In this document: piece by piece, positions 491-10,393 of the stretch
How the letters are laid out: each line of letters begins with the position of its first letter
Numbering within the stretch: the stretch's first letter is position 1
Source of the DNA: Spirochaetales bacterium
GTDB taxonomy: Bacteria > Spirochaetota > Spirochaetia > Sphaerochaetales > Sphaerochaetaceae
Reading direction: 5' to 3'
NCBI GenBank assembly: GCA_012523305.1
Contig: JAAYIV010000019.1
Location: 1-62,984, forward strand
DNA: 62,984 bases
Position numbers and translations under genes: made by a program
The notes under the pieces: model-generated
Databases searched by the model: none
Told to the model about the DNA's origin: nothing
The model's input: only the letters and a program-made list of their open reading frames with translations

Positions 491-548
491 AAAAAATGCT
501 CTACTGAAGACTACTATAGATATCTAATCTAATCTTCAGTGAGCATTT
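491..548 (-). terminator. Terminator of the DUF3798 ABC operon
   Basis: On the minus strand AAATGCTC-ACTGAAGA pairs with TCTTCAGT-A-GAGCATTT, a 16-bp stem with one bulged base and a 22-nt loop, running straight into a T run (491-496). It lies 52 nt after the stop of the last gene of the operon. A second small palindrome, AAACGAT-TG-ATCGTTT (585-600), directly follows that stop codon. Confidence 0.8.
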
Positions 549-599: not shown

Positions 600-1073
600 T
601 TAGAAATCAGTCGGAATCAGTTCGTCAGAGACAATTTCTGGTTCTTGCGATACCGGAGCAACCGCAGCAGTCGGAGGTATGTATTCTTGTAACCATACAG
701 ATTCATCAGCTCCGCCGACCAATGCGGGGATGCTGATCAGCACCATGGCATAACTCATCGGCACACTGAATTTCTTCTCAAACACATGTTCTTCGAATGA
801 TCGGTCCGTATACGTTACCGTAATCCTATGACGCTGACCCATGACATCCACCCTGTCCCTGTCACGGGCAGCGAGTTCAATCTCAGGTTCTTTATTAACC
901 TGTACTTCGACGATTGAGAAAGCTTGGTATGTTGTTCCGCTGTCCTCAACAGTCTTATTATCAAGAAGAAGGGCATGTTGCTTTCCGATTATGAACATCA
1001 GGACAGCGATCAATATAATCAGGATTGCTGCAAAGAGTTGGAATAAGTTCCTCCGGGTGAAATGTATGTTCAT
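600..1073 (-). CDS. Small membrane-anchored protein of the DUF3798 ABC operon
   Basis: 157 residues. One N-terminal membrane segment (about residues 12-30, FAAILIILIAVLMFIIG) is followed by a soluble part of about 120 residues rich in beta-forming residues and ending in a Pro/Glu tail. With a short basic N-terminus the soluble part should lie outside the inner membrane. The start codon overlaps the stop of the upstream permease by 4 bp, so translation is coupled, and the gene is last in the operon. I do not know its function. By position it could be an accessory or assembly subunit of the transporter, and it may belong to the DUF6672 family, which I only half recognise. Confidence 0.75.
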   Translation of the reverse strand: MNIHFTRRNLFQLFAAILIILIAVLMFIIGKQHALLLDNKTVEDSGTTYQAFSIVEVQVNKEPEIELAARDRDRVDVMGQRHRITVTYTDRSFEEHVFEKKFSVPMSYAMVLISIPALVGGADESVWLQEYIPPTAAVAPVSQEPEIVSDELIPTDF

Positions 1074-2200
1074 GCATCCACCTCCCCGCTGTCGACTTGA
1101 TCTTGTGCTAGCAATAGCCCACCACGTGCGGCTTTCCTTCGTTTACGAATCTCATACAGCACCAATGCTATCGTAATGACACCATACGAGACAAAGACTC
1201 TGAAGTATTCTCCCAATTGGGCATCACCGATGATTCGCTTCCCGGCCGGCGGTGATACGACAAACATGAGGTGGAACAGCGAAACACCCAAGAAGACATT
1301 CCCGATCGAAGCTCTTGCCACCGAAGCTCCGCCAACTAGTAAAGCGGCAATAGAGAACATTCCGATCTGCATATGTGAATTATAGGTATTTAGCGTACCC
1401 ATATTTTGCAAATATAGAATCATTCCATAACCGGCCAGAATGGTCGAAATCACAACCGAAACAATTCGAGTATGTTCTACCCGTATGCCTGCGGCCCGAG
1501 CGACTTCCATATCTTGGCCGACAGCCCTCATGTCCTGACCCAGTTTTGTCCTGCGAAACCACACAATGAATATGCATAACAACGCAATGATCAATAAGGT
1601 GGCGAAAGGAATACTGATTCCAAGGAATCGTATCGCCAAAAGATTATCCAAAGCCTTTCTGATGGTGATGAGATTGACGGTGTTTCGAATACCATATCCT
1701 CTTGGAAGGACCAGCGAGGTGTTCTTTATCGGGATCACGCTTCCCATACCATAAAGAACAATCAATTGATAAACTCCATTGATGAAAAATCCGATGATAT
1801 AGCTTGTGACCATCTCCCTGCCTTTGGCCATGTTGAGAATCTTTCCGCACATCCACCCCAAGAAGGCAGAAATCGGTGTGGAAATAATCATTGCCAGTAT
1901 CATTCCGGGAATTCCGACAATGCCCCAATCGACCATGAATATCAGCCCGATTTGGCCAGCCATCGCTCCGAGGGTCATTCCGAAATTCAACCCCATACCT
2001 GCCATGATCGGAACTAGCAATGCAATGATTAGGAAGCTATTTCGAGATATGCGAACTATGATTTCTTGCCCTAAATATCCCAATGAATAACCGCTGAAAG
2101 GAATTCCAATAAGACAAATAATTCCAAACAGGATCGGTACTGCATTTTTCTCTAGGGCTCCAATTATTTTTTGACCACGGGTCTCGCGTAATTTACTCAT
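1070..2200 (-). CDS. ABC transporter permease, ribose/nucleoside (BPD_transp_2) type
   Basis: 376 residues with about 8-10 hydrophobic segments and the conserved cytoplasmic region of this permease class (FRRTKLGQDMRAVGQDMEVARAAGI, about residues 215-237), which docks on the ATPase. This is the RbsC/YufPQ-like class of inner-membrane translocators. It follows the other permease with a 4-bp overlap and overlaps the small membrane gene after it. The two permeases are related but not identical and presumably form a heterodimeric channel. The substrate cannot be told from the permease. Both extremities are charged and cytoplasmic. Confidence 0.9.
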   Translation of the reverse strand: MSKLRETRGQKIIGALEKNAVPILFGIICLIGIPFSGYSLGYLGQEIIVRISRNSFLIIALLVPIMAGMGLNFGMTLGAMAGQIGLIFMVDWGIVGIPGMILAMIISTPISAFLGWMCGKILNMAKGREMVTSYIIGFFINGVYQLIVLYGMGSVIPIKNTSLVLPRGYGIRNTVNLITIRKALDNLLAIRFLGISIPFATLLIIALLCIFIVWFRRTKLGQDMRAVGQDMEVARAAGIRVEHTRIVSVVISTILAGYGMILYLQNMGTLNTYNSHMQIGMFSIAALLVGGASVARASIGNVFLGVSLFHLMFVVSPPAGKRIIGDAQLGEYFRVFVSYGVITIALVLYEIRKRRKAARGGLLLAQDQVDSGEVDA

Positions 2201-3240
2201 CGTGTGGCCTCCGATTTCCTTGTAAGTGCATAAAGAATCATCCCGTTTGATACAATGATACGAATTACCTCAGACATGTCGGTATGAATTATCGAATTCA
2301 TCACCGAAGGTGTCATTGTCAATATTCCTTGGAACAATAATGTTCCGACAACAACGTTTAATATTGTCGCTTTGTTTACTGAAGCTCCTCCGATCAAGAT
2401 TGCTGAAACTGCAGGTAATGCCATATAAAACGGCCCCATATATAACTGTATGAAGCCAAAACTTTGCTGATAGACCAAGATACCGATAGCTCCCAACCAT
2501 GTGGACATGATTACGCTTAGCGTTCTGATCTTATCGATATTAATCCCTGAAGCGCGGGCAAATACCGGATTAGAACCAACGGCCGTCATTGCCGTTCCTT
2601 TCTTGGTATGAAGAAACGCCCACATGAGAAATGCTATCAAAGCAAAAAACAGTATCATTCCTGTCGGGAACGTAAAATGATCACCGATGCCAAATTTTAA
2701 GAAATTACTTAATACATGCCAATAATAACCTTCTGTGGAAATAGTGGTTCTCAAACCTGTTCCCGCATACCCCCATACCATGCTCGGGTGATTGTATGGA
2801 AGCAACAACCACATGATACACATGAAGGCAACTGATGAGAACCCGACATAGGTTGCGATCATCATCTCACTGCCTTTCACACGGTTCAAAAGTTTCCCGT
2901 ACCCCCATCCGAGGATAACAGCAAAAGGCGTGCTTAAAAGGATTGCCATTAAAAATGAAACGTTTCCCACAAAATTGAATTCAATGGAAAGAGTTCCACC
3001 CAATAATCCGGCGATAATGCCCAAAGGCAACCCGAAATTCAAACCACATCCTGAATGAATCATCGGTACCATTGCCAATACCATGATTCCGTTCATTCCG
3101 AAACGTACGATCGTATCACTTAGAGAAGTGCTGACATTGATGCCTACGAAAGGGGCAATGATAAACAATGAAAGAAGGAACAACCCGATGATTATCCGAG
3201 GCCAACCGAAAGAATGAATAAATTGTTTTATCTTGGTCAT
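2197..3240 (-). CDS. ABC transporter permease, first of two (BPD_transp_2 type)
   Basis: 347 residues, strongly hydrophobic throughout. The coupling-helix region (LHTKKGTAMTAVGSNPVFARASGI, about residues 207-230) matches the equivalent region of its partner. A Gly-rich stretch (LIGGASVNKATILNVVVGTLLF) near the C-terminus also occurs in the partner as LVGGASVARASIGNVFLG. Like the RbsC family it should span the inner membrane and pair with the second permease. Start and stop codons overlap the flanking genes by 4 bp, so the ATPase and both permeases are translationally coupled and probably made in fixed ratio. Confidence 0.9.
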   Translation of the reverse strand: MTKIKQFIHSFGWPRIIIGLFLLSLFIIAPFVGINVSTSLSDTIVRFGMNGIMVLAMVPMIHSGCGLNFGLPLGIIAGLLGGTLSIEFNFVGNVSFLMAILLSTPFAVILGWGYGKLLNRVKGSEMMIATYVGFSSVAFMCIMWLLLPYNHPSMVWGYAGTGLRTTISTEGYYWHVLSNFLKFGIGDHFTFPTGMILFFALIAFLMWAFLHTKKGTAMTAVGSNPVFARASGINIDKIRTLSVIMSTWLGAIGILVYQQSFGFIQLYMGPFYMALPAVSAILIGGASVNKATILNVVVGTLLFQGILTMTPSVMNSIIHTDMSEVIRIIVSNGMILYALTRKSEATR

Positions 3241-4847
3241 GCGGGTTTCTCCTCTGTATTACCGCGCTTTGACACCATGAGTAATCCGAAATCCTCAGAT
3301 GGCGTTTCAGCAGGCAATATTCCAGAAATTCTACCATCGGTCACAATCGCAATACGGTCACATATTGCCCTCAGCTCTTCCAATTCGGAAGAAATCATAA
3401 CGATAGTAGTTCCCGATTTTTCATTGTAATCCCGCAATGCTTGCAATACCAAAGATTTTGCCCCGATATCGATTCCTCTTGTCGGTTCTGAAACAAATAA
3501 CAGTTTTGGCGTTAAGGCAAACGCTTTGGCCAAACAGATTTTCTGTTGATTCCCTCCGGACAATTCTTTGGCTTTCTGCCTATAGCTCGTACATTTGATT
3601 TCCAGCGCATCGATGTATTGCTGTGCAACGGCTTGGATTTGCTTTTCATCCCGCCACATGAGCATCCCGTTGAGATATTTTTTAAGAAACTTATCATTGA
3701 CCTGCATTGCAGCAAAAGAAATATTCCAGTCCAAAGATTCATCGAGCAATAATCCGACCCCGCGCCGATCTTCAGATACGAAAGCCATTCCAGCGTCGAG
3801 GAATCGTCGCGGTTCATTTAAAGCGATTTCTTTGCCTTCGAAAGTAATTGATCCGCCTGCGGTAAACAGTCCCATCGCTCCATTTGGGATCCCTAGCTTG
3901 CCTTGGCCTGCTAATCCTCCGATTCCGATGATTTCCCCTTTGTGAACATCCAAAGACACGTTGCGGACCGTTTCTCCCGGCATATCGACCCATAGGTTCT
4001 TAATTGAAAGCATTACCGATGAATGTTCATAATCAAACGACCTTCGATCAGCATGGTGGGTGACTTCCCTTCCCACCATCCATCGTGCAATCTGGGCAAT
4101 GGTAAGGTCTTGTGCTTTTTCATTCTTCACAATCTTTCCATCCCGCATGATCAACACCGTATCACACACATCGATAATCTCTTGAAGTCGGTGAGATATG
4201 AAGATAATTGCTATGCCTTCATTGGCAAGGGAACGAACGGCTGATAGAAGAATCGAAGCTTCCTGTTCAGTAAGGACCGCGGTTGGTTCGTCCAATACCA
4301 ATATTCTAGTGGATTCCTTACTCAATTCGCGGGCAATTTCTGTGAATTGCTTATGCCCGACCGGCATTCTCCCGACAAGCATCGATGAATTGATCGCCAC
4401 TCCAAGTTTTCCGATTGCTTTCTTGGACTTTTCATTCATGCTGTTCCTATCGAGTGAGTTGAGTCGCTCTCCAAACACTTCAGAAATAAACGAATATTTC
4501 TCTGGTTCGCGATTTAATAAAATATTCTCAGCTACAGTAAAATCTGGTAACAAAGAAAATTCTTGGTGAACCATGCCGATCCCATCGGCAATAGCGTCAA
4601 ATGATGATGTATAATCAACAATCTTTCCATCGACAAGCATCTCGCCTTCATAACCACCGGTGAGTTGAATAACATCCATCCCGAACAATATATTCATTAA
4701 TGTTGACTTACCAGCACCGTTTTCACCGACCAAACCAAGAATCTCACCTTTATGCAAAGAAAAACTTACATCGGTAAGTACTTGGTTCCCGAAAAAATCT
4801 TTGCTGATATTACGCATCTCCAATAGTGGAGCGCTAGTATCTACCAT
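3237..4847 (-). CDS. ABC transporter ATPase with two nucleotide-binding domains (RbsA/MglA type)
   Basis: 536 residues from the ATG at 4847. An in-frame TTG two codons earlier is less likely, because an AGGGG ribosome-binding site stands 8 nt before the ATG. The first domain has Walker A GENGAGKS, signature-like KQFTEIARELS and Walker B ILVLDEPTAVL. The second has a degenerate Walker A (GLAGQGKLG), an intact signature LSGGNQQK and LLFVSEPTRGID. One good and one degenerate site is the pattern of RbsA-like sugar and nucleoside importers. It feeds two permeases and follows the DUF3798 binding-protein gene. The ligand is unknown, and the double ATPase does not by itself prove a sugar. Confidence 0.9.
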   Translation of the reverse strand: MVDTSAPLLEMRNISKDFFGNQVLTDVSFSLHKGEILGLVGENGAGKSTLMNILFGMDVIQLTGGYEGEMLVDGKIVDYTSSFDAIADGIGMVHQEFSLLPDFTVAENILLNREPEKYSFISEVFGERLNSLDRNSMNEKSKKAIGKLGVAINSSMLVGRMPVGHKQFTEIARELSKESTRILVLDEPTAVLTEQEASILLSAVRSLANEGIAIIFISHRLQEIIDVCDTVLIMRDGKIVKNEKAQDLTIAQIARWMVGREVTHHADRRSFDYEHSSVMLSIKNLWVDMPGETVRNVSLDVHKGEIIGIGGLAGQGKLGIPNGAMGLFTAGGSITFEGKEIALNEPRRFLDAGMAFVSEDRRGVGLLLDESLDWNISFAAMQVNDKFLKKYLNGMLMWRDEKQIQAVAQQYIDALEIKCTSYRQKAKELSGGNQQKICLAKAFALTPKLLFVSEPTRGIDIGAKSLVLQALRDYNEKSGTTIVMISSELEELRAICDRIAIVTDGRISGILPAETPSEDFGLLMVSKRGNTEEKPA

Positions 4848-4898
4848 ATGCAAATCCCCTAAAAAAAGTGCCCTTCCGGACCCTCCTTACGCTCGCAA

Positions 4899-5001
4899 TA
4901 CCAAGCCAGCTCCCCGCATTATAATGAAAAGAAAGCTTGCTTGGTACTACCAGATTCTTCGAACCAATCGGAAATAGTAGAGGGGGGAGATACTCCCCCC
5001 T
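4899..5001 (-). terminator. Hairpins between binding-protein and ATPase genes (partial terminator)
   Basis: Thirteen to twenty-one bases after the binding-protein stop, the minus strand carries AGGGGGGAG-TAT-CTCCCCCCT (4981-5001), a 9-bp perfect stem without a strong T run. Further on, TACCAAGC (4939-4946) pairs with GCTTGGTA (4899-4906). A short GTCC-GGAA-GGGC hairpin with seven T residues follows just before the ATPase ribosome-binding site. Such structures commonly protect the 3' end of the binding-protein mRNA and reduce read-through, so the binding protein is made in excess. Confidence 0.65.
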
Positions 5002-5020
5002 AATAATTCTAACTAATCAA

Positions 5021-6226
5021 TTACTTAATCAAGAAATACTTGTCAGGAATTGTTACAGATGGGGTTCCCATGAAGCCCTTACCCATGATGTATGTGTCCT
5101 GATAAATAAGAATGTGGTTCTTCGCCCTTACGCCAGTGGAAGTGTCCGAATAGAAACTGCCGTTCCACTCCGCACCCGGGGTAAATTTACCATACGCTTT
5201 CATGATATCAGACAGTTTGAGCAATTCAGACTCACCATTGACTACGTTGATTGCATGCTGAGTCAAACCAGCAGTAGTTGCAATACCGTATGAGAACGCC
5301 CAGGTTCCAAAACGACCTGCTCCGCCTTTCGCTACGACGGCTGCTTCAACAGCCTTCAAAATGGCTTCTGAATCACCCTGTTGCGCAGAAAGGTCAAGAC
5401 CAAGTGCTCCAGGATATCCCATCAACGGGGAAGGAAGGTCGGCTTCGATGAAATACCCGCCATAAGCGAGCAATTGTTTTAGCAACGGGTCGGTATGAGC
5501 ATCATTGGTGCAGAAATACGCAGCATTCTTGCCATACTTGGCGACCCAAGAAGGAACGTTTTCAAGAATGTACTGTTGTGCGCCTGCAACACCTACATCG
5601 CTTGTCGGGTCTGGAGCGGTCTCGAGTACGAACTTCATTCCCAATTCTTCACAAGTTGCCCTCATGATCGCTACGCGGCGGCTCATGGTCTCGTAGCTCA
5701 TGTGGCGTGGGAATGAAATGTGAACAAACGTGTCGCACCCCAAATCATGAGCGGTCTTGATGATCAGATATCCACGGGCAACGAAGTCATTGTTAACAGC
5801 CAAATCTGCTGCACTCTGGATTACCGGTGGATCTTCGTGTGCTTCACCAGCAATACAAAGAATGTCAGGGCGCTTTTCTTTGACGCGACGGAAGGCTTCG
5901 GTAGTACCTGGAATCGCCTGGTTCACGATGATCGCCTTCATAAGAGGATCGTCAGCTAACCCGGCAATAACGGATATCGTTGTCTCGGCTTCGTCCATGA
6001 AGTTGTCCGGATACGTAACGTGCTGGATTTTCCCACCGTTTGCAACCGCACCGTATTCAGCAATCATCAACTCAGCTCCCCGCAAGTCATCTTCTGACTG
6101 CGATACCGTTCCGGTCACCACCCCTATGTGGAAATCTTTTGCTGCTGCAGGTTCTGCTGCACCTTGAGCAAATAGTATTCCACTGGCCAGAATCAGAACG
6201 AACAGAACAATCAAACTCTTTTTCAT
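5021..6226 (-). CDS. DUF3798-type periplasmic solute-binding protein
   Basis: 401 residues. A signal peptide (KKSLIVLFVLILASGILFA) ends near residue 20. There is no lipobox cysteine, so the protein should be free in the periplasm. The mature part has the alternating beta/alpha pattern of type 1 periplasmic binding proteins and matches my memory of the DUF3798 family (for example IVNQAIPGTTEAFRRVKEKRPDI, ISFPRHMSYETMSRRVAIMR, FCTNDAHTDPLLKQLL). A consensus ribosome-binding site AAAGGAG lies 7 nt before the ATG. It heads a five-gene operon with a double ATPase, two permeases and a small membrane protein. No ligand is known to me for this family. Confidence 0.82.
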   Translation of the reverse strand: MKKSLIVLFVLILASGILFAQGAAEPAAAKDFHIGVVTGTVSQSEDDLRGAELMIAEYGAVANGGKIQHVTYPDNFMDEAETTISVIAGLADDPLMKAIIVNQAIPGTTEAFRRVKEKRPDILCIAGEAHEDPPVIQSAADLAVNNDFVARGYLIIKTAHDLGCDTFVHISFPRHMSYETMSRRVAIMRATCEELGMKFVLETAPDPTSDVGVAGAQQYILENVPSWVAKYGKNAAYFCTNDAHTDPLLKQLLAYGGYFIEADLPSPLMGYPGALGLDLSAQQGDSEAILKAVEAAVVAKGGAGRFGTWAFSYGIATTAGLTQHAINVVNGESELLKLSDIMKAYGKFTPGAEWNGSFYSDTSTGVRAKNHILIYQDTYIMGKGFMGTPSVTIPDKYFLIK

Positions 6227-6401
6227 TCTTTCTCTCCTTTAATGTAGAGTTTCGCGCTAGCAGGCATGAGCATGTCTTTCTAGTGTGGGAAAAAGTTTAC
6301 CATAAAAATAGTGATTGCACAGTATGTTTTTACATATTTATTTATTGATTATACTATTTGATGCATAAATTTGATATTCAGGAGCATATAATTGAGGATT
6401 A

Positions 6402-6433: not shown

Positions 6434-7195
6434 TTATACGGTTCTTTGGGCTTGCTGCCTTCTTATTTCATAGAGACAAATCCCTGTAGCGACAGACACA
6501 TTGAGTGAATCGATATGCCCTTCAGTCGGGATGGCAACGATGTGATCGCATGTTCTCTTAACCAGCTGGCTCATTCCGTCACCTTCCGACCCCATGATCA
6601 AAACCGTTCTTTTGGGGAAGATTACCGAAGGTAAACAATCTCCATCCATATCAGCACCATATACCCAGAAACCATGTTCTTGAAGCAAGGCAAGTTCTCT
6701 TACTATGTTTACCACCTGGGCAATGGGGACATATTGGGAAGCGCCGCTAGATATTCGAGCAACAGTCGGGTTTACCGAAGCGCTTCGGCGATCGGGGACG
6801 ATGACCAAATCAACCGCGAATTGATCGGCGCTACGCAATATTGCCCCGAGGTTTTGCACATCGGTGATTCCATCGAGCACTAGGATTAAAGCATCTTTAT
6901 CGTTAGGCAAGTCCTTGAGGAAATCCTTTATAGTGGTTGTCTTAAACAACCCTTGCCGTTCTTTTTTTGATTCGCCAAGTTCAAGCACACAACCTCGGTG
7001 ATCGATGTTCGGTACCATCCTATCCATCTCAATCTTTGCAATCTTGCGGATAGAGATTTTCCCATTGGCTTTAGCCAAACCTTCAAGGCGATCATTACGT
7101 TTTTCACTGTTGCGACAAAGATAAAGGACCGATCCTGCCGGAGCGTTCTTGACTGCTTCCTCTATCGCATGAAATCCTGTTATCCGCTGACCCAT
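6434..7195 (-). CDS. rlmB: 23S rRNA (guanosine-2'-O-)-methyltransferase, RlmB/TrmH (SpoU) family
   Basis: 253 residues. The N-terminal substrate-binding domain (about 1-80, beginning MGQRITGFHAIEEAV) is followed by a SPOUT domain with its three motifs: LDGITDVQNLGAILRSADQF, LIMGSEGDGMS and IPTEGHIDSLNVSVATGICLYE. These make the knotted SAM site. RlmB methylates the ribose of G2251 in the peptidyl-transferase loop of 23S rRNA. The conserved Asn and Arg of motif 1 are present. A GGAGGAG ribosome-binding site precedes the ATG. It lies downstream of dnaJ after a gap of 136 bp with no clear terminator, so it may be read partly from the chaperone operon. Confidence 0.9.
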   Translation of the reverse strand: MGQRITGFHAIEEAVKNAPAGSVLYLCRNSEKRNDRLEGLAKANGKISIRKIAKIEMDRMVPNIDHRGCVLELGESKKERQGLFKTTTIKDFLKDLPNDKDALILVLDGITDVQNLGAILRSADQFAVDLVIVPDRRSASVNPTVARISSGASQYVPIAQVVNIVRELALLQEHGFWVYGADMDGDCLPSVIFPKRTVLIMGSEGDGMSQLVKRTCDHIVAIPTEGHIDSLNVSVATGICLYEIRRQQAQRTV

Positions 7196-7331
7196 CCCGC
7201 TCCTCCACAGTGCACATAGCTGTTGTCGAATCCGTCATTACAGCCTACTCTTTACTATTAGTCTATTTTAAAATCCACAGAAAGACATTTCATATTCTAT
7301 CAGGAGTATCGTGATGTACTATCAATAACAA

Positions 7332-8456
7332 CTATTCAGAAAACGGTACAGGTTCGGGAGATGAATTTTCTCCGATTGCATCCGAAAGCTGTTTCAGCAA
7401 ATTCTTTGCTTCCCGATTGAGCTTCTTCGGAACATCGACGATGATTTTGATATACATGTCACCGCGCTGATCAAATGAACTGCGCAAATGAGGGACTCCC
7501 TTGTTACGCAAACGAAGCATCTTGCCATTTTGCGTACCAGCAGGGATCGCCACCTTCACTTTGACATCATCGATTGTCATCACCTCGATTTCCGCTCCCA
7601 ATGCCGCCTGGGTGATTGAAATAGGAATCTGACAATACAGGTCATTGCCGGATCGTTCAAAGTATTTATGAGGTCTAACATTTACATACACATACAAATC
7701 ACCGGCAGGCCCGCCATTGGGGCCGGCATCGCCCTGTCCGGAGATCGATATCCTGTTTCCGGTATCGACGCCCGCCGGGATAGTGACTTTCAATTTCTGT
7801 TGTTTTCGTTTCAGCCCTGTTCCATGGCAATCATTACAAGGATTTTCTATCAGATATCCTTCGCCGCCGCAGGTGGGGCATGTTGATGCTATTGAGAAAA
7901 ATCCTGAATTTCGCCTGACTTGTCCGACACCGTTACAAGTCGAACAGACTTTTCTTCCGGATCCACTTTGCACACCCGAACCGCTGCATGTGGAACAATG
8001 GATCTGATGCGTGTACGCTATTTCAACTTTTGTTCCGAACACCGCATCTCTAAAATCAATATCCACATCATAACGTAGATTGGCACCGACCGCGGGTCCT
8101 CGCTGTTGCCCGCCCCGCGATGAACGCATCCCACCTCCGAAGAAAGATTCGAAAATGTCAGAAAACCCTCCGCCACCGAATAAATCGCTGAAATCACGAT
8201 ATACATTCGAATAGTTTTGGGCTCCATTCGCATCAACTCCGGCAAAACCGAATTGGTCATAAGCCTGACGTTTCTGTTCGTCACTTAATACTTCATACGC
8301 TTCACTAGCTTCTTTAAAACGTTCTTCAGCTGCCTTGTCACCCGGATTTTTATCCGGGTGATTGGCAACTGCCAGTTTACGGTAAGCTTTTTTGATTTCA
8401 TCTATGGAGGATCCTTTCGAAACCCCCAAGACTTCATAATAATCCCGTTTTGCCAC
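7332..8456 (-). CDS. dnaJ: Chaperone DnaJ (Hsp40)
   Basis: 374 residues, starting with GTG. The J-domain (1-70) has the HPD motif ([17 protein letters not shown]). A Gly/Phe-rich linker (about 75-120) follows, then a zinc domain with four CxxCxGxG-type repeats ([34 protein letters not shown]) and the C-terminal substrate-binding and dimerisation domains. This is a full-length class I DnaJ that stimulates DnaK ATPase and delivers unfolded clients in the cytoplasm. It lies 29 bp after dnaK and is the last gene of grpE-dnaK-dnaJ. A GGAAG site lies about 10 nt before the GTG. Confidence 0.97.
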
Positions 8457-8485
8457 GGTACGACACTTCCTTCAGATAATGGATT

Positions 8486-10393
8486 CTAGTCTACAACTTC
8501 ATAGTCGGCGTCTTCAACCCCATCATCTTTCTTAGTATCGGTAGATGAAGCCTTTTCCGTCTGCTCTCCGGCTGCCTGCTGTTGAGCCGCACTTGATTTA
8601 TATACTTCTTCGGCCAACTTGTAAGCTGCCTGTTGCAATGCTTCGACTTTTGCCTTTATTTCAGCGGGAGTGCCATTGGTCATCGTATGCTTGAGATCCT
8701 CCATAGCGCTTTCGATTTTAGCTTTGTCTTCGCTAGAAATCTTATCTCCATATTCCTTCAGTGATTTTTCTGTGGAATAGAGCAAATTATCGGCTTCATT
8801 GCGCACTTCGATTCTTTCACGCTCGAGTTTATCTTCCTCTGCATGCAACTCAGCATCTTTCACCATTTTCTCAATATCTTTTTCAGAAAGACCGGATGAT
8901 GACTCAATACGAATCTTTTGTTCTTTACCGGTTCCAAGATCTTTCGCACTTACATGCACGATACCGTTGGCATCGATATCGAAGGTCACTTCGATTTGCG
9001 GAACTCCTCGCGGGGCTGGCGGAATACCGACAAGATCAAATTTACCAAGCGTCCTGTTTTGACTGGCCATTTCACGCTCGCCTTGGAGGACATGAATCGA
9101 TACGGCTGTCTGTCCATCCGCTGCGGTTGAGAAAATTTGGCTTTTACGGGTTGGAATCGTTGTATTCCTCTCTATCAACTTGGTAGAAATACCACCTAAG
9201 GTCTCAATACCAAGTGATAGCGGAGTCACATCCAACAACAAGACATCTTTCACGTCTCCGCCTAAGATTCCTCCCTGAATTGCCGCACCCATTGCGACCA
9301 CTTCATCGGGATTGACGCCTTTATGCGGCTCTTTCTGGAAGATTTCTTTTACGATTGCCTGGACTGCCGGGGTACGGGTACTTCCTCCAACCAAAATAAC
9401 CTCATCGATATCCTTCGGAGACAAACCCGCATCTTTCAATGCATTCATACAAGGCTTGCGGCTTCGCTCGATAAGATCCGCAACCATTTGCTCGAATTTT
9501 GCTCTCGACAGATCCACTTGAAGGTGCTTCGGTCCCGAAGCGTCCGCTGTTATGTAAGGAAGATTGATAGAGGTGTCTTTAGTACTCGACAATTCTATTT
9601 TTGCTTTTTCAGCGGCCTCTTTCAAGCGCTGTAAAGCCATCTTATCTTTTGACAGATCGATGCCGGTGTCTTTTTTGAAACTTTCTACCAGCCAATCGAT
9701 AATCTTCTGATCGAAATCGTCACCGCCAAGGTGGGTGTCGCCGTTGGTTGATTTTACTTCAAACACACCATCACCGAGTTCGAGAATGGAAATATCGAAC
9801 GTCCCGCCACCGAGGTCATACACGGCGATTTTCTCTTCTTTGCTCGTATCCTTACCAAAACCATAGGCCAATGCAGCCGCCGTAGGTTCGTTAACGATTC
9901 GCTTCACCTCGAGCCCGGCTATCTTTCCAGCATCTTTGGTCGCTTGCCTCTGTGCATCATTGAAGTAAGCAGGAACAGTAATGACTGCTTCATTAATTGT
10001 CTCACCCAGATAATCTTCAGCGGTTTTCTTCATCTTTTGTAAAATAGCCGCAGATATCTCTTGGGGAGTATATTCTTTTCCCCTGATCGATAGACGGACC
10101 TCATCGGAAGGCCCTGAACTTGCCTTATAAGGGACTCTGGATACTTCTGCGGGAACCTCAGTAAAACGCCTACCCATGAACCTCTTGATTGAAGAAACAG
10201 TATTCTCAGCGTTTGTAATGATTTGGTTTTTTGCTGGTTGTCCCACGAGTCGCTCACCTTTCGCAGTGAATCCCACGATCGAGGGCGTGGTCCTTTGCCC
10301 TTCGGAGTTGGGGATGACGAACGGTTCACCGTTTTCCATAACCGACACACAGGAGTTCGTCGTTCCCAAGTCGATTCCAATTATTCTTGCCAT
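8486..10393 (-). CDS. dnaK: Chaperone DnaK (Hsp70)
   Basis: 635 residues. The N-terminal ATPase domain has [12 protein letters not shown], the phosphate-2 motif [14 protein letters not shown], the adenosine motif [13 protein letters not shown], and the conserved linker [19 protein letters not shown]. The substrate-binding domain and helical lid follow. The C-terminus ends in an acidic tail DADYEVVD, close to the usual EEVK/D-type end. It is the central ATP-driven foldase of the cytoplasm. It sits between grpE (92 bp upstream) and dnaJ in the usual order. A small hairpin (AGCGG-ATGA-CCGCT) lies in the grpE-dnaK gap. Confidence 0.98.

Follow-up and report, generated by a model that had tools for sequence, protein, structure and literature searches.

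What does a transporter import when its binding protein belongs to DUF3798, a widespread family of unknown function, and its operon ends in a gene of another uncharacterised family, DUF6672? This question is raised by a five-gene unit of contig JAAYIV010000019.1 (assembly GCA_012523305.1) from a Spirochaetales bacterium of the family Sphaerochaetaceae; the whole stretch analysed, positions 1 to 62,984, is referred to here as the window. The unit is almost certainly an ATP-binding cassette (ABC) importer of the ribose type (CUT2). The reading that we prefer, at a probability of about 0.45, is that of a CUT2-like importer in which DUF6672 is a fixed fifth component and whose ligand is a short peptide or a peptide-like amino-acid derivative. 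We infer the ligand class from gene linkage in relatives, a route that is least direct for the window's own subtype. Peptides appear to be the best-supported class, with proline peptides as a first guess, and among small ligands derived from amino acids the most likely one would be a short, possibly proline-containing, peptide.

A first-pass annotation of the window had described five genes in one direction, the last four joined by successive 4-bp overlaps and the whole closed by a strong terminator. The list of open reading frames and a Pfam search of the window confirmed this arrangement, with the genes running from 6226 down to 600 on the minus strand (Table 1) and the overlaps lying at 3237-3240, 2197-2200 and 1070-1073. 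Folding of positions 485-600 gave -33.5 kcal/mol (z -5.3), a stability equalled by 0 of 200 shuffled sequences, and the hairpin is accompanied by a U run; a consensus scan of the window did not list this closing hairpin at about 548-494. The hairpin between the first two genes (5001-4981) is weaker than the closing terminator (z -2.2 vs z -5.3). The ATPase reading frame is listed from a TTG at 4853, and the ATG at 4847, which is preceded by AGGGG and gives a protein of 536 aa, is its probable start.

Table 1. Features of the importer locus, in window positions.
Feature	Position	Strand	Evidence
DUF3798 (PF12683) type I periplasmic binding protein, 401 aa	5021..6226	-	PF12683 434 bits, AlphaFold, 3qi7 Z 38.4
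GC-rich hairpin 3' of the binding-protein gene, before the ATPase gene	4981..5001	-	-19.1 kcal/mol for 4975-5025, z -2.2
RbsA-like double ATPase, two ABC_tran (PF00005) stretches, 538 aa as listed	3237..4853	-	Pfam and NCBIfam models
Permease 1, BPD_transp_2 (PF02653), 347 aa	2197..3240	-	Pfam
Permease 2, BPD_transp_2 (PF02653), 376 aa	1070..2200	-	Pfam
DUF6672 (PF20377) protein, 157 aa; predicted N-terminal membrane helix and Ig-like beta domain	600..1073	-	Pfam, AlphaFold
Intrinsic terminator hairpin at the end of the unit, with U run	about 494..548	-	folding of 485-600
Imperfect TATGCA-N17-TGYATA copies, possible operator	6339..6388	-	2 mismatches, weak

The binding protein had been assigned to the DUF3798 type as a family of its own, and a profile search agreed. 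It scored 434.2 bits against PF12683 (gathering cut-off 24.6) and covered positions 1-271 of the 271 in the model, while no BMP/PnrA (Bmp) model was among its Pfam matches at E up to 1 and no named sugar-binding model matched at the thresholds used. Neither this protein nor the DUF6672 protein matched any NCBIfam model at E 0.01 or better. The N terminus resembles a signal peptide without a lipobox Cys. The AlphaFold model (pLDDT 94.4) has the type I binding-protein fold, and in a fold search with it 963 of 1000 chains had a Z of at least 8, the listed rows being type I binding proteins and receptor domains of the same fold. The sole credible solved relative by sequence is 3qi7, a DUF3798-like protein of C. 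difficile labelled 'putative transcriptional regulator'. It belongs to the same family as the window protein (phmmer 8.8e-29; Z 38.4 over 347 residues), with which it shares 22-23% identity; of the window protein's residues, R174, H175 and D206 are missing from it in the phmmer alignment, whereas N241 and the P-S-P at 265-267 are conserved. No paper naming this entry was found in the portions of the literature that the search reached. Behind 3qi7 the ranking is headed by the amino-acid binder LivJ (4gnr, Z 19.0), followed by LsrB (18.8) and sugar binders near 18, and LivJ is tied within about one Z unit with other binders of amino acids, autoinducer-2 (AI-2), sugars and aromatic acids.

The other core components were as described before, an RbsA-like double ATPase (PF00005 twice) and two different permeases (PF02653 in both). 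The ATPase matched RbsA-like models over most of its length and was best matched by sugar-importer (CUT2) models, its best equivalog reaching 398 bits against a cut-off of 699 (xylose); the permeases matched CUT2 and LivH models weakly. No NCBIfam equivalog was reached by any of the unit's proteins, so that none belongs to a named sugar equivalog. RbsABC/CUT2 importers for ribose, xylose and AI-2 share with the window the type I binding protein, the double ATPase and PF02653 permeases, whereas the window unit has two different permeases, a binding protein of another family and the additional DUF6672 protein. The BmpA/PnrA nucleoside and RfuABCD riboflavin importers also combine a double ATPase with two different permeases, but the window binding protein has no BMP-family match, and to our knowledge DUF6672 is absent from both systems. 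RfuA, an early candidate for the identity of the binding protein, was not supported by a sequence search of the PDB, which gave no match to a solved riboflavin-binding protein; the fold lists are compatible with it. The unit differs from the Opp/Dpp peptide importers in that it has neither a cluster C binding protein nor BPD_transp_1 permeases.

We surveyed the system in relatives. Among the genomes sampled, PF12683 exceeded its cut-off in 17 of 198 from Spirochaetota, the phylum of the window, in 68 of 398 from Bacillota and in 102 of 120 from Synergistota, a phylum known for amino-acid fermentation (the last two phylum names follow the seed assembly, Clostridiales and Synergistaceae). The set comprised 197 loci, the majority of them flanked by several kb of sequence at either end; the duplicates L179, L205 and L207 were left out, and one source of named loci was the best 80 of at least 497. 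Core genes were labelled with profiles built from the loci, which found 213 binding-protein genes. With the window left aside, 152 distinct operons extended in full as far as permease 2 (a count per operon; counted per binding protein, window included, there were 158), and the order binding protein, ATPase, permease 1, permease 2 was identical in all 152, which is more than chance. Another 38 binding proteins were solo, some of them at contig ends, and others were tandem. Tandem separate DUF3798 copies occur in L107, L251 and L253, and in L112 and L207, which are the same locus, two DUF3798 domains lie in a single frame of 857 residues.

A tree of the 213 binding proteins, window included, separated a large clade (type A), type B and a small type C beside A. 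Type A takes in almost all of the Spirochaetota sampled, the majority of the Synergistota loci, the two from Thermotogota and three from Clostridia; type B is mostly from Bacillota, with five Synergistota loci. Three type C systems (L184, L186, L191) lie beside double-cubane-cluster reductases. What is new here is that DUF3798 operons split in two, type A with DUF6672 and the rest. The fifth gene was found in 82 of the 89 complete type A operons (window excluded); five of the remaining seven end at or near a contig edge, L283 shows a DUF6672 reading frame, and in L210 the gene lies about 2 kb further on, behind other open reading frames. Of the 63 complete operons that do not belong to type A, 58 of them from Bacillota, not one was found to have it. 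Because DUF6672 is present in every type A operon that can be judged and in 0 of 63 elsewhere, it is a type-specific fifth component. The expectation of a fixed five-gene order holds for type A in this sense and fails across clostridia, since the non-A operons lack the gene. The locus stands as the complete DUF3798 importer of unknown substrate that the first-pass annotation had proposed: its binding protein did not score to a characterised family, and the small gene was present in the homologous loci of its type.

In the survey of the window's phylum all 13 genomes with DUF6672 also had DUF3798. In genome G194 a distance of 44 kb separates the binding-protein gene from the rest of the set, and DUF6672 stays with the permeases. 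Two spirochaetes (G074 and G195) have distant DUF3798 copies, of 45% and 36% identity, without DUF6672. A treponeme-like genome of 1.1 Mb (G056; loci L016 and L021) has two divergent DUF3798 genes without DUF6672, one of them with an internal stop, and a DUF3798 gene of T. pallidum is annotated as pseudo (PMC10600179).

The 157-residue product of the fifth gene scored 156.3 bits against PF20377 (gathering cut-off 24.3) and matched no named ABC subunit, in agreement with the earlier view of it. That view also held it to be membrane-anchored and of unknown fold. The anchor was retained, and a fold can now be predicted. The AlphaFold model (pLDDT 93; alignment of 74 rows, 73 of 80 plus the window) has a helix at 7-30 followed by a beta sandwich (about 32-130) and, after it, a loose tail, so the protein is predicted to be a membrane anchor with an Ig-like periplasmic domain. 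The helix starts at two arginines, and by the usual rule the orientation is therefore probably inside-out. Foldseek with this model gave nothing at E 0.001 or better. The top structural match of the beta domain was the extracellular Ig-like domain of mammalian PepT2/PepT1 (Z 8.6, rmsd 1.9, 78 residues), at 14% identity; Ig-like folds are common, with many other rows at Z 7-8, and unless further data show more, we regard this likeness as coincidental, the mark of a widespread fold and not evidence of function. The idea that DUF6672 is a mere adaptation to cells with two membranes is unlikely, as five type B operons of Synergistota (L201, L287-L290), which have two membranes, are without it. Among 30 Bacillota loci (L171-L200, of which L179 is the one bearing DUF6672) no C-terminal fusion to permease 2 was present and, by eye, no short fifth reading frame recurred across lineages; L188 and L200 share one of 71-73 residues. 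We know of no accessory subunit like DUF6672 in ABC importers of the ribose type, to which it would be a new addition.

The first-pass annotation had noted that no enzyme gene hints at the ligand. This is true of the window, where none was seen adjoining the unit, and not of its relatives. Unbiased clustering of neighbour genes gave a single outstanding partner, a family M24 metallopeptidase. A profile search found 20 M24 genes in the 197 loci, all 20 within 462 bp of a gene of the DUF3798 system and 18 on the same strand, in both Bacillota and Synergistota; they are placed before the binding protein, after permease 2 or after a solo binding protein. Counted by gene slots, 19 of 20 were adjacent against 4.8 expected, the exception (L217) being due to a short open reading frame called in a gap of 206 bp. 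In ten lineage representatives that we chose, M24 was adjacent in nine against 2.1 expected (p 2.7e-6). The M24 label changes 13 times on the tree, by gain or loss, so the linkage does not go back to one event. All 19 unmasked copies keep the five metal ligands of prolidase (D, D, H, E, E). Five M24 proteins tested matched PF00557 at 215-246 bits, and for six the best NCBIfam model was Xaa-Pro dipeptidase PepQ or aminopeptidase PRK09795, all under the cut-offs. Seven M20 peptidase genes were found in addition, each sharing its strand with the core gene to which it is linked. In L073, L078, L172, L192 and L243 the M20 gene adjoins a core gene across a gap of 21 to 344 bp. In L242 it comes straight after a permease 2 whose coding sequence is read in two frames, and in L259, where dipeptidase-type models are its best matches, it follows an M24 gene. 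Peptidases of other families would escape the M24 and M20 profiles, which derive from neighbour clusters. That the importer often adjoins peptide-cutting enzymes in distant relatives suggests that its cargo may be a small peptide, and the dipeptidase tie gives DUF3798 a first testable ligand class.

Type I binding proteins hold their ligands at loops on strand ends. The binding-protein alignment has 86 rows (85 of 90 selected sequences plus the window). The loop residues T38, T40, S42, Q43, E45, E131, S171, F172, R174, H175, D206, T240 and N241 (window numbering) are common to types A and B, each at least 0.89 in both, and many of the conserved loop residues are acidic. Positions 242, 244, 263, 264 and 269 are D-H-D-L-M in the window and mostly C-M-C-C-H in type B. 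This Cys/Met/Cys-Cys/His set, near the presumed cleft, might be a metal site or form a disulphide. Four positions (102, 103, 130 and 244) subdivide type A: they are N-Q-H-H in 102 proteins from four phyla, the window (N102, Q103, H130, H244) included, and D-D-Q-Q in 13 Synergistota proteins. That N-Q-H-H is kept in proteins of different phyla suggests that the window's subtype has one particular ligand. Its own direct link to a peptidase consists of the upstream M20 genes in L073 and L078, which lie beside N-Q-H-H binding proteins of Spirochaetota.

On the preferred reading, the DUF3798 protein would capture the ligand in the periplasm and pass it to a channel of the two different permeases, powered by the double ATPase. 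DUF6672 would be anchored in the inner membrane with its Ig-like domain in the periplasm, where it probably aids docking of the binding protein or assembly. The imported peptide or peptide-like derivative would then be cut by cytoplasmic M24 or M20 peptidases, and proline or hydroxyproline peptides would be the first candidates. The analysis itself shows which genes are present, their order and families, the class of predicted fold, the tie of DUF6672 to type A and that of M24 and M20 to relatives of the unit; import as such, the kind of ligand and the place and role of DUF6672 are inferred from these. A more detailed version is rather doubtful as a whole. In it the ribose-type peptide importer with its anchored Ig-like DUF6672 subunit would carry a four-position specificity code (N-Q-H-H in the window, D-D-Q-Q in dipeptidase-linked Synergistota), the Cys/Met/Cys-Cys/His set of Bacillota would tune the peptide, and some Bacillota would feed hydroxyproline peptides to the dehydratase HypD.

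Several results weigh against a peptide ligand, among them the HypD counts outside Bacillota and the methyltransferase, speD and FMN riboswitch neighbours that are told with the alternatives below. M24 is absent from 177 of the 197 loci, and most loci have neither M24 nor M20. An M24 gene is near 8 of the 13 D-D-Q-Q binding proteins and 3 of the 102 with N-Q-H-H, and the locus of these three also contains a D-D-Q-Q operon. M24 goes with D-D-Q-Q proteins and with type B, and the window's form meets it only through such shared loci. The window's genome has three M24 matches, none on the window's contig. The assignment of the cleft rests on loop positions, not on a complex. We know of no RbsA-type system that imports peptides, and the portions of the literature covered by the search yielded no ligand, ligand-bound structure, phenotype or functional account for DUF3798 or DUF6672.

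An amino or imino acid in free or methylated form (hydroxyproline or a betaine, for example) is a rather unlikely ligand in place of a peptide, although several neighbours point to it. HypD (trans-4-hydroxy-L-proline dehydratase) and its activase lie in two type B loci of different clades, on the same strand in L192 (1376 bits) and divergent in L198 (1450 bits; cut-off 1100); both activases match the activase model best, yet under its cut-off. In the Bacillota sample DUF3798 was present in 35 of 66 HypD genomes against 33 of 332 others (Fisher 4e-14). If the comparison is narrowed to genomes that match the HypD model at all, the figures are 35 of 66 and 17 of 158; both counts are uncorrected for kinship. 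Type C loci L186 and L191 have MtaA/CmuA-like methyltransferases and a corrinoid protein beside them, with RACo in L186, and an amino-acid binder heads the fold list after 3qi7. Against this, the M24 and M20 peptidases, the most widespread linked enzymes, would be idle. The tie to HypD is not borne out in Synergistota (DUF3798 in 44 of 50 HypD genomes and 58 of 70 others) or in Spirochaetota, where HypD was present in 3 of 198 genomes and DUF3798 in none of the three; the window's genome has no HypD over the cut-off. As a general partner of DUF3798, HypD was set aside.

A sugar or nucleoside is what the architecture itself would suggest, through the CUT2 fit of the ATPase and the weaker CUT2 and LivH fit of the permeases. 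It is an improbable ligand, as all equivalog scores are far under their cut-offs, no BMP model was matched, and no widespread neighbour among the loci is a sugar or nucleoside enzyme; a cluster with a PfkB-like kinase, named from its sequence, lies on the opposite strand in eight loci of one lineage.

That the cargo of the window's subtype is a polyamine, agmatine or a similar cation is quite improbable; the many acidic loop residues would agree with the idea. In all four loci with speD (L105, L257, L261, L263) an N-Q-H-H binding-protein gene precedes speD and an Orn/Lys/Arg-type decarboxylase gene by 133-409 bp on the same strand, and speE and speB follow in the three longer of these four Synergistota loci. 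But the four binding proteins are 85-96% alike and so represent one lineage, this lineage makes its own polyamines, and the remaining 193 loci gave no speD.

Import of a flavin, as by the RfuABCD riboflavin system, is very improbable, since the FMN riboswitch and ECF S-component gene found upstream of three type B operons among 60 loci scanned belong to one lineage, the riboswitch already has a transporter gene of its own, and the binding protein had no sequence match to a solved riboflavin-binding protein.

In these three loci (L150, L154, L160) the FMN riboswitch is about 1.15 kb upstream of the binding-protein match, before the S-component gene (PF12822, 76 bits in L176, the same region as L150), and no clear terminator separates that gene from the type B operon in L150. 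The same scan of 60 binding-protein loci gave one c-di-GMP-I riboswitch and two SAM riboswitches, the latter on the other strand; no RNA was common to the DUF3798 loci, and a family-wide riboswitch was dropped as a clue to the ligand. The c-di-GMP-I riboswitch (L143, 3449-3538) precedes a type B binding-protein match by about 1.1 kb on the same strand. In the window no riboswitch reached the gathering score.

Upstream of the unit, at 6434-10393 of the window, lie an rRNA methyltransferase-like gene, dnaJ and dnaK, named from their sequences, and they precede the operon in the same order in 11-13 Sphaerochaeta-like loci. These and other housekeeping neighbours (dnaK, dnaJ, Clp genes) were considered as functional partners and rejected, as they look like synteny shared within a lineage. 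The motif TATGCA-N17-TGYATA, which looks like an operator, was found upstream of the binding-protein gene in seven Sphaerochaeta-like loci (L039, L040, L042, L043, L053, L060, L061), with matches in 9 of 293 loci overall. The window's own imperfect copies at 6339-6388 are weak, with 2 mismatches, and there are 12 such matches window-wide against a mean of 7 in shuffled sequences.

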